A stretch of 64,000 bases of DNA from contig MU278372.1 in the NCBI GenBank assembly GCA_022385755.1, positions 310,001 through 374,000 on the forward strand, written 5' to 3'. Numbering within the stretch: position 1 is the first letter of the stretch; each line of letters opens with the position of its first letter. The notes under the pieces are model-generated. The model was not told the origin of the DNA. It saw only the letters and a list, made by a program, of their open reading frames with translations, and searched no databases. This document shows, piece after piece, positions 371 through 4,219 of this stretch. The position numbers and the translations under genes are program-made. Source of the DNA: Trametopsis cervina. Lineage: Eukaryota; Basidiomycota; Agaricomycetes; Polyporales; Irpicaceae.

Positions 371-372
371 TA

Positions 373-412
373 CAGTGCCTTGCATATGAAACTGCAGTCA
401 CTGATTTTCGCG
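373..412. repeat. Left terminal inverted repeat of the Tc1/mariner element
   Basis: 40 bp that match the reverse complement of 4178-4217 without mismatch. It is preceded by the TA target-site duplication at 371-372. The match stops at 412: the left arm continues CGAAG and the right arm AAAGTG. Confidence 0.95.
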
Positions 413-936
413 CGAAGACGATAAATATGAACAAATACCCCAGAATTGGCAAGTCACCGTCACGACAGGGGCAACTGGCGCCTAATGCGTGACTCGTCGC
501 CGCGTCGTTCCCCCGCTGTTTGTTGCGCCGTTCCCTCGCTGTTTGCTGCGTCCTCTGCTGTCCCCGCCTTCGCTGTCTTTCTACCCCCGCAGACCAACGA
601 CGGTTCGCCCGCAAACTACTCTGGTCTCTGGAAACCCAACCTTGCACCAACATGCCAACCCTATCCACGGGAGAGGCCTCCGTCCAGGCAACATGGAGTA
701 TAGTCACCGGTAGTGGCCTCGGCAAGTGAGATATTGCTTTGTGCTCGCCAGGTGAATCAAATTCAGTGCTACTAGCTCATTCTCTTCATTGTGGAGGGTG
801 CCAGTTTGCTGATACCCGCCTCGTTTCACAGTCCCGCCGTGCGACGACACCTCACTTTTTGCCCCGCCAATGGTCTTCCTTTGTAGAGAATCAACGGCAC
901 AATGGTGGCCTCTGGTTCTTGACACTTGGAGGGCAG

Positions 937-943
937 TATAAAA
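937..943 (+). promoter_or_regulatory. TATA box of the passenger gene
   Basis: TATAAAA lies 61 bp before the ATG at 1004, inside the transposon. The passenger gene therefore carries its own promoter and does not depend on flanking sequence. Confidence 0.6.
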
Positions 944-1003
944 GGAGCTGGATGTTGGTCTTCAGGTAGAGAAGGTGTGCATTCACTTGTTCTGCATTGC
1001 AAA

Positions 1004-2945
1004 ATGTCTGACCAACCCCCAACCCCTACTCCTTCCCCTCGTCGTCTCCCCCATGTCTATGGGAATGCTCGGGCAGACACGGCGCCGTATTTTATTCCGC
1101 TCTCGACACATACCAAGGAGAATATGAACCCGCTTCCACCGAGTTGCATGGACCGCAGGCCTGCTTCGTCGACTTGGCTCAACAGTGCCATGCCCGGATG
1201 GGTTGGTAGGTACTCTTTCTGTATTCCCCACCAATGCCAATGCTGATGAGGTGCAGATGGTGCTGCCAATCCGCCGCAGTTCTACCATACAGTTGAAGAG
1301 ATGGAGCAAACCCGCCGCGAGCATGGCATCTTTGCCCGCCTTGATCGCGCGGCCCTCCTGGATCCATCTACAGAAACCAGTCCTTCGCATCAACCAAGCC
1401 CGCCTGCAGCTGCTAGTAGAGCTCACTCACCCCAGCCGGGTATTGTGATGCCTCCTCGGTTGCAGCGCAGCCTTCCGCCACTGTCTCTTGTCGCTCCACC
1501 TTGTCCGCCTGTCACTCCTGTGTCGGTCGCACCCTCGCCTGCCAATGAAGGACTCAATTCAGCCAATGGTATAGATGGTATGTACCTTCCTATTGATCTC
1601 ACTATTCGCGCATCTGAATTTCTACCGCAGAGAATATTCAAAGCTTCCTTGTCACCGTAGGTATCAATTACCTCAAACCTACAGACAAGCAGGGCCGGAG
1701 CAAGCAAGTCGTAGCTAAAATGACCGAGGTGAATAAGAGAGAGCGCATGCAGCTCTCTGCATCAACAACACGTGTCGACTTCATAACGTGGTGTCTGAAG
1801 GTGCATCACCTTCACGGCAAGTATCGTCCTGGTACCACGAGTGGCCCGCGGTTTAAGATTTGGTGGAACCGAGCACTGTAAGTGTGTTCGTTTCCTACTC
1901 CTGCAATCACAGCACTCACTTCCTCTTAGAGGTGGTCGAACAAAGGCGCCGCAGGTTGATACTGACCATGACTGGTCTGTTGCCCTGACGAGCCTGCTCC
2001 TCCGCAAGACGGACACGGAGATCTTGGCTGAGTTTGACCTCAGCAACATGAGTGGGTTTCTACACAATCAGGTATGTCGCTGTGATCATTTTCGACATGT
2101 TCGCTGATCATGCATGAAAGCCATTGGATCCGACTCTTGATAATGACGTTGAATTACTACATGGTACACAAGTAAGTACACTATGCATTCTCCTTCTACA
2201 CGGAATACTGACGTTGCCATCAGGTGCCGCAGCTATCTATGTTCTCAACGGAGGAACAGCTGCATGGCAAGATTATCGTGGGGCTGAAGAAGAAGTGGCT
2301 GTGTCATACACACGTCGGCGAGCACGGTGACCCAGGATACTGTTATGTCCTGCCTGTGACAGCTGAACACATAGGTTTGAACAACCGCAAGCTGAAAGCA
2401 TGGGCCGCTGCCATTGTAAGTTGCACACCTAGTCTTCTGTGACATGTCTCATGCCATACTAGGCTGGCCATGAGTATTCCATCAATGACCCTCCTCCGCA
2501 GGTCATTGACGGGGGATCGCGCGAGGTCCCATTGGTCAAAGCTCGTGGTCGAACTGGTCCGCATGCAACTGCCTCGACATCGAGCTCATCCAGTGAGTTG
2601 ATCTCGTTGATGACACTGGCTATGATGCAGCAGATGTCGTCGCTGCAGGGCACGACCATCCAACCTGTCCAAGCTTCTGTCTCGCATCCTCCCTTCGCCA
2701 ATATATCAAGTGGTGAAGAACTCCGGGCCTGTCTGATGGACTTCCGGAACCTGAAGGACATTGATTTCCTTCCGTATCATGACAGTCTTCTCGCTCTTGA
2801 TTTCACACCTGATATTATCTGTGATGTTCCTGCCTCACGTCTATCTGAACTTCTTGGAGGTGCAGTGGAGGGGAAGGTTCGAAAATTGCAGGCCTTTAGT
2901 AAAAGCTGGGATTTACAGCTTAATAAAATTCGTAGCTCTAACTAG
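1004..2945 (+). CDS. Transposon passenger gene, unknown function (545 aa)
   Basis: Seven exons can be joined in frame: 1004-1205, 1257-1577, 1631-1877, 1930-2071, 2121-2171, 2224-2415, 2463-2945. All introns are 46-53 bp with GT..AG ends. I do not recognise the family. The first third is rich in proline and serine. The middle (about residues 175-385) looks folded, with Trp-rich stretches such as FKIWW and WLCHTH and a basic helix-like segment KMTEVNKRERMQL. A short Ser-rich linker follows. The last 65 residues (motif LSELLGGAVEGKVRKLQAF) resemble the helical pattern of a SAM domain, which is my inference. There is no DDE triad, so it is not a second transposase. A TATA box sits 61 bp upstream. 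The gene ends 33 bp from the transposase stop. It may be an accessory transposition factor, a regulator or captured cargo; nothing in the sequence decides this. Confidence 0.82.
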
Positions 2946-2978
2946 TCACGTATTTCATTGGCATCTATGACATGTACT

Positions 2979-4047
2979 CTATTCATAGCCACAGTTAATA
3001 GCCCATGCAGTTGCATGCTCAGAAGAGATAGACTGAGCTGCTTGATGAATCAGCCAAGGTCGAATGTCATTGCTTGTCACCAAGTGCTCGTGACGGCGTA
3101 GCCATGTCTTCAAGTTGTGAAAGCCTTGCTCTATCGGGTTGAAGTCGGGCGAGTATGGAGGCAGATAAACCAGCTTTGCACCTATGACCGTAGTTAGACG
3201 TATATGTAAATTCTGATATTCTCAGTACGAAACTTACCACACTCATCTACGACAATTCTTCGAATCTCTTCATCATGATGAATAGCACAGTTATCTAGAA
3301 CAACAACACTGTGTCGACCGGGATATGGGTTCAAAAGAGGGGCCTATATACATAGGTTAGCAGAAGACTTGAGAAGAAGTAACGAGGACATACAATATCT
3401 TCACGAATAAAATTGATGAACCGGTCTTTCGTAACAGAGCCTTCGAAGATATCCAATGCAATAATGCCTTCAGTTGTAAGAGCAGGTAATATAGAATACC
3501 GTTGGCCACGTATGAAAAGCTCGCGCTTCACACAAGCACGTCCCATTCGACTCCATCCTCTCAACCGGTGGTTCACTTGATTGTCCACACTTGACTCGTC
3601 CAGCCAGATAAAGTCTTCTTTCGGAATATGAGCATATGCGGCTTGCCATGTTGCTCGAAGCTCTTCATTGCGTTCTAGTGCAACCCGTGACAGGGACTTG
3701 TGCGATAATGCCATCCGGTGAAGGGCTCTTGAGATGGTGGCTATCGAAACAAAAGCTTGACGTTCATCCATAAGGTGTTCCTGTAACTCGTCCAGATACA
3801 TTGACGGGTTGGCTTGCAGCAAGGAGAACATGTAGTCGAGGTCTGATGTGTCGAGCTTCCGTGCACGCCCACGTGGAATAGCCAGTGGATTCTGTACGGT
3901 GCCATATTCTCGATACAGATGCAGAATCTTGTAGACCGTACGTTCAGAACAACAAGCAAGCTGTGCAATTTCGGCCACTGGAAGGCCAGATTCATGTCTC
4001 CATGATAGGATACGTTGTCTCATTTCAGTAGATAGGTGTGGCGGCAT
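2979..4047 (-). CDS. Tc1/mariner-type DDE transposase, intact (320 aa)
   Basis: Three exons on the minus strand: 4047-3394, 3343-3238, 3181-2979; the introns are 50 and 56 bp. Residues 1-55 form a helix-turn-helix of the IS630/Tc1 type (SERTVYKILHLYREYGTVQN), followed by a second DNA-binding segment with GRARKL at 60-65. The DDE_3-type catalytic core has the first Asp at 150 (WLDESSV), the second at 235 (VVVLDNCAIHH) and the Glu at 271 (YSPDFNPIEQGF), with 35 residues between the last two. All three catalytic residues are present and no stop or frameshift was found, so the enzyme may be active. It would cut and reinsert the element at TA sites by binding the 40-bp TIRs. An upstream in-frame ATG at 4170 lies next to the right TIR; I chose 4047 because the helix-turn-helix begins just after it. 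Confidence 0.93.
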
Positions 4048-4177
4048 AGCGTACAGTGAAGGTAAACATATGAGGCCACAGCTAGGGCGGTCAGATTCAG
4101 CAGTCGGGCCACGGCATGTGACAGAATGTGACGGCAGATTTCCATATCGGGATCTACGTGACTCGATCAAACACTTT

Positions 4178-4217
4178 CGCGAAAATCAGTGACTGCAGTT
4201 TCATATGCAAGGCACTG
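4178..4217. repeat. Right terminal inverted repeat and TA target duplication
   Basis: Exact inverted copy of 373-412, followed by TA at 4218-4219. It lies 131 bp upstream of the transposase start, so it probably overlaps the transposase promoter region. Confidence 0.95.
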
Positions 4218-4219
4218 TA

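Follow-up and report, generated by a model that had tools for sequence, protein, structure and literature searches.

The 64,000-nucleotide stretch of Trametopsis cervina DNA analysed here, which we call the window, contains a transposon (element A) that is probably an autonomous two-gene member of the IS630-Tc1-mariner supergroup, from a lineage that has long kept a convergent second gene beside its transposase gene. The main evidence for this reading is the pairing of the two genes, since a convergent relative of the second gene (gene 2) was found at 4/4 loci matched by the transposase of element A, strongly at C25 (element A itself) and C12 and more weakly at C3 and C31. Gene 2 very probably belongs to the lineage as an integral component. 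The role that we propose for gene 2, which is to help transposition, is plausible but tentative.

Layout and copies of element A

An earlier note on this DNA had described a 3.8-kb element with identical 40-bp terminal inverted repeats (TIRs) and a TA pair, which carries an intact transposase gene and a second, seven-exon gene in convergent orientation, both unbroken. The description proved correct at every structural point checked. The arms (371-412 and 4178-4219) are 42 nt long and 100% complementary including the TA, or 40 bp without it, and as a sequence match this is far beyond chance. TA-flanked TIRs are a feature of the supergroup. The two predicted genes run tail to tail. The features of element A are as follows, in positions of the window:

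371..372, left TA target-site duplication, from the sequence
373..4217 (371-4219 with the flanking TA), element A, IS630-Tc1-mariner type, on contig C25, about 3.85 kb
373..412, left terminal inverted repeat, 40 bp, a perfect match to the right end and also found on two MITEs
937..943, plus strand, TATAAAA preceding gene 2, identified by consensus match only
1004..2945, plus strand, gene 2, 545 aa, seven exons (1004-1205, 1257-1577, 1631-1877, 1930-2071, 2121-2171, 2224-2415 and 2463-2945)
2946..2978, gap of 33 bp separating the convergent stop codons
2979..4047, minus strand, transposase gene, 320 aa, exons 4047-3394, 3343-3238 and 3181-2979
4178..4217, right terminal inverted repeat, 40 bp, a perfect match to the left end
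4218..4219, right TA target-site duplication, from the sequence
gagggccTAactgactg, sequence expected at the empty site of element A

The three exons of the transposase gene are intact and the frame has a single stop, located at its end. The catalytic residues are D150, D235 and E271, with 35 residues between the second D and the E (DD35E), and the product matches the Pfam model DDE_3 with 106.1 bits (cut-off 28.6), the NCBIfam IS630 model with 163.2 bits (cut-off 100) and, above the Pfam cut-offs, both HTH_23 and HTH_32. The Pfam models PAX (21.8 bits, cut-off 22) and HTH_Tnp_Tc3_2 (17.7 bits, cut-off 31.5) fell short. The assignment to Tc1/mariner in the earlier note holds as far as the DDE_3 and IS630 models go, but it is not borne out by the Tc3-type helix-turn-helix model. 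Since the IS630 model was cleared and the Tc3-type model was not, 'IS630-Tc1-mariner' is the safer name. The transposase has 595 relatives in public proteins, the best 120 of which were considered, and a Sparassis relative (P0013) gave a sequence match to Sleeping Beauty (E 0.0027). Scans with the transposase alignment detected 199 relatives in prokaryote genomes, the best 80 of the 199 being retained, and two distant loci in viral contigs.

Gene 2 is interrupted by six GT-AG introns of 47-53 bp each, and its spliced product is identical to the public T. cervina protein BDW22DRAFT_1432176 (P0001), in line with the seven exons claimed earlier. The TATA box that had been assigned to the gene corresponds to the TATAAAA, and 60 bases separate this motif from the ATG.

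A search of the genome with the TIR, as suggested in the earlier note, and with the whole element identified a single full copy, which carries both genes; all copy numbers in this genome are lower bounds. The TIR query further detected two MITEs of 388 and 387 bp on C1 and C12, and a solo end lies on C19. The MITEs are TA-flanked, agree with element A over about 60 bp at its right end and about 44 bp at its left end and hold no sequence from the transposase gene or gene 2. As they are only 89% alike, the MITEs are, on this measure, older than the C12-type derivatives described below and are no sign of a recent burst. No transposase-only copy with the TIRs of element A was found in the genome, and gene 2 had no second match in it at E<=0.001, which leaves no host copy at this threshold. 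The combination named in the earlier note as the mark of captured cargo, transposase-only copies together with a host gene 2 elsewhere, was hence not encountered within this genome.

The second gene at diverged transposases

At E<=0.001, a search with the transposase of element A picks out four loci, namely C25, C12, C31 and C3, and this threshold defines the 4/4 count. The locus on C12 is a second complete two-gene element, from which three shorter copies derive:

C12:675,044-678,559, complete element with two genes, inverted arms 192 nt long (97%)
C11:607,008-607,778, derivative, 771 bp
C14:551,149-551,918, derivative, 770 bp
C29:306,047-306,792, derivative, 746 bp

The C12 transposase (five exons, 330 aa, DD34E) has diverged to 35% identity with that of element A. 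Its partner on the plus strand (four exons, 544 aa) again lies tail to tail, with 10 bp between the stops. Comparison of the gene-2 family profile with the whole C12 second protein by hhalign gave an E of 2.6e-4 and a probability of 42%, and the Cys/His region on its own gave a score of 33.3 (E 8e-6, probability 84%), the maximum of 40 shuffles being 16.7. Just past this region, a phase-0 intron occupies the same aligned residue in both genes. In its PB1-like region the C12 protein did not match the gene-2 family (hhalign 13.6 against a shuffle maximum of 19.1), and its SAM-like region barely exceeded the shuffles (14.7 against 14.4, probability 1%), the Pfam model SAM_1 also remaining below its cut-off on this protein.

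The three derivatives have one internal deletion in common, which leaves little of the second gene and only the first exon of the transposase gene. Between C11 and C14 the identity is 100% over 773 bp and breaks off where the element ends, which points to recent movement of the C12-type derivatives in trans. Together with the MITEs of element A, the derivatives show that both genes are dispensable in cis, and they are silent on gene 2 in trans. A further C12-type fragment, 74% diverged and with no inverted ends at the site, lies at C26:14,325-14,717 and holds the start of a C12-type second gene (54% over 67 aa).

The links to C3 and C31 are weaker. On C3, stops interrupt the transposase, which scores below the Pfam DDE_3 cut-off, and a piece with the order C-x2-H...C...H converges on it from the opposite strand. 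This piece aligns with gene 2 over 41 residues (36.6%, 23.9 bits, the best of 100 shuffles reaching 19.2). When the frames of the window and of three loci were scanned with a Cys/His profile, it ranked second after gene 2 (15.6 bits, E 0.0013), followed by the C12 gene, which was not significant (7.1 bits, E 0.59). On C31, 17 bp separate the transposase from the stop of a convergent minus-strand frame, and this frame matches the C-terminal piece of C3 over 60 residues (33% identity, 37.7 bits; shuffle maximum 17.7; next best of 1,225 frame pieces 20.0 bits). The C-terminal pieces of C3 and C31 gave no blastp match to gene 2 or the C12 protein. The chain of homology thus runs from C25 to C12 and to C3 via the Cys/His module and from C3 to C31 via the C-terminus, so that the link of C31 to gene 2, through C3 alone, is indirect. 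Long nested perfect inverted repeats with arms of up to 68 bp (L031:419-2105) lie one kilobase before the broken C3 transposase.

The C2 locus (C2:1,476,039 region; L159:712-1851), whose open frame of 380 codons encodes another kind of DDE transposase below the DDE_3 cut-off, stands outside the 4/4 count. A tblastn search with seven gene-2 relatives found none of them within the 3.2 kb examined there.

Since the diverged transposases each face a convergent gene that is itself a diverged gene-2 relative, gene 2 is very probably heritable within the lineage, and the same partner, order and orientation at these transposases, together with stop codons that almost touch at C25, C12 and C31, argue for a stable two-gene element rather than a one-off capture. 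The membership of the second gene in the element, as the earlier note had proposed, is supported by these pairings, two of them strong and two weaker, and by the lack in this genome of a host copy (E<=0.001) and of a transposase-only copy with these TIRs.

The gene 2 protein and its role

Gene 2 belongs to an unnamed family of mushroom proteins, of which 12 members from ten named species were gathered; two of these came from a profile search in which part of the candidates was scored, so that 12 is a lower bound. Searches with the gene 2 protein gave nothing in Pfam (E<=10), in NCBIfam (E<=1) or among PDB sequences (E<=1), and no Pfam match above the cut-offs was obtained for the other members of the family. 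In scans of viral contigs, P0001 matched nothing and P0003 matched nothing related. The parts of the protein that could be distinguished are encoded as follows:

1631..2053, plus strand, PB1-like (beta-grasp) region, about residues 175-298, from the AlphaFold2 model
2302..2370, plus strand, Cys/His module C348-H351-C361-H370, invariant in 12/12 members
2544..2552, plus strand, RGR patch, residues 413-415, RGR in 10/12 members
2709..2942, plus strand, SAM-like helical region, residues 468-545, from the AlphaFold2 model and VIA-align

For the PB1-like region of the model, PB1 chains stood at the top of the VIA-align ranking, and Foldseek alone did not go below E 0.001. PB1 and SAM domains mediate association, and some of them polymerise. 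A PB1 domain is also mentioned, in the part of PMC8616336 that concerns them, in domesticated plant MUGB proteins. The invariant Cys/His cluster and the basic RGR patch suggest contact with DNA, and we infer that the gene 2 product may be an oligomerising, DNA-binding accessory factor. The protein is 31% identical to its Mycena chlorophos relative (P0005), compared to 59% for the transposase and its relative in that species (P0015, among the best 120 of 595). Two relatives of gene 2 that are 63% identical to each other (P0006 and P0007) are found in Arthromyces matolae, each on a short contig (1,881 and 5,608 bases), as expected of repeats.

The following mechanism would be consistent with these data. 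The TA-flanked ends and the complete DDE transposase lead us to expect cut-and-paste transposition at TA. The second gene is very probably inherited with the lineage, for which the case in this genome is strong at C25 and C12 and weaker at C3 and C31. Its product might self-associate through the PB1-like and SAM-like domains, with the Cys/His module and the RGR patch touching DNA or the transposase, and might assist transposition in trans as an accessory factor, by analogy to the second protein of PIF/Harbinger elements, which is Myb-like. The same proteins could then mobilise the gene-less MITEs. Points that weigh against this reading are the single copy of element A, the poor agreement of the PB1-like and SAM-like regions at C12, the indirect link of C31, the broken transposase of C3 and the C2 locus with no gene-2 relative in 3.2 kb. 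The data would fit a helper that binds or pairs the ends as well as a regulator or an anti-silencing factor, and we lean, tentatively, towards the helper. A wider reading, in which mushroom-forming fungi harbor an old two-protein branch of the supergroup with a fast-evolving, polymerisable PB1-Cys/His-SAM protein as obligate tail-to-tail partner, is possible, and we advance it with some doubt.

An alternative that likewise places gene 2 in the element, and that we consider unlikely, is a regulatory product that would repress the element or counteract silencing by the host, as is thought of VANC from the Arabidopsis Hiun element. The stop codons at C25, C12 and C31 are 33, 10 and 17 bp apart, so that the 3' transcript ends probably overlap and double-stranded RNA might be formed, and the far lower conservation of gene 2 than of the transposase is what would be expected in a conflict with the host. 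The invariant Cys/His cluster across ten species, however, fits a core role too.

The remaining explanations deny gene 2, or the element as a whole, a lasting mobile existence. If gene 2 were host cargo that was captured once by the copy in the window, element A would be single-copy, as it is, and the introns of gene 2 would be short and ordinary for fungi, as they are. Convergent relatives of gene 2 nevertheless accompany the diverged transposases of C12, C3 and C31, an intron position is common to gene 2 and the C12 second gene and no host copy of gene 2 was found in this genome (E<=0.001), which makes this explanation very improbable; a one-off capture is disfavoured by the three further loci C12, C3 and C31. 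We give still less credence to a domesticated, immobile remnant retained for a host function of either gene. The single copy, the two open frames and the MITEs, whose 89% similarity gives no hint of a recent burst, would agree with such a locus, but TIRs identical at 40/40 positions and an intact TA pair are not needed by a host gene, and the complete C12 element would need to have had the same history.

Relation to known systems and significance

Like other members of the IS630-Tc1-mariner supergroup, which takes in bacterial IS630 and eukaryotic Tc1/mariner, element A combines a DDE_3 domain and N-terminal HTH domains with TA duplication, short TIRs and MITEs. A typical Tc1 element carries a single transposase gene and is about 1.3 kb long (size as given in PMC7325037), and element A differs from it by its two genes, its 3.85 kb and its DD35E triad. 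The statement of the earlier note that the superfamily normally has one gene and half this length therefore agrees with the typical element but does not extend to the ciliate elements TBE and Tec, which according to published descriptions, PMC7325037 among them, are of the Tc1/mariner type and carry further genes. Given these precedents, a multi-gene Tc1/mariner member is not new as such. TBE and Tec resemble element A in their extra genes, one of which is also on the opposite strand, and differ from it by having three genes, including 22-kD and 57-kD type or recombinase proteins, and by their occurrence in ciliates.

Among fungi, the MarorTcMar-18/-21 family of Marasmius oreades is described in the relevant part of PMC9674265 as mariner-type, with a length of 3,972 bp and an inserting derivative of 1,120 bp without protein domains; it resembles element A in size and life style (short derivatives). 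PIF/Harbinger elements (and Pong) likewise encode a transposase plus a second protein in two ORFs, as stated in the portion of PMC5543537 dealing with them, and are used here as a working analogy only, as their transposase is of another superfamily than the DDE_3-type transposase of element A. Our literature search, the scope of which lay outside Repbase and the main fungal survey, retrieved no recognised two-gene fungal Tc1/mariner element with a PB1-Cys/His-SAM partner, and such an element may be in print.

If the reading with an obligate partner is true, it would mean partner-dependent transposition within the IS630-Tc1-mariner supergroup. Tc1/mariner transposases owe their value as tools to the fact that a single protein suffices, and to our knowledge transposases of the supergroup are generally thought to act alone. 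As the second protein was kept while the transposase diverged to 35% identity, partner dependence becomes directly testable in this supergroup. The element also offers a likely context for the unnamed protein family of ten named mushroom-forming species. Annotation of fungal transposons by their transposase only may split such elements and leave the second gene as a host gene, an example of which is gene 2 itself, publicly listed as the host gene BDW22DRAFT_1432176.
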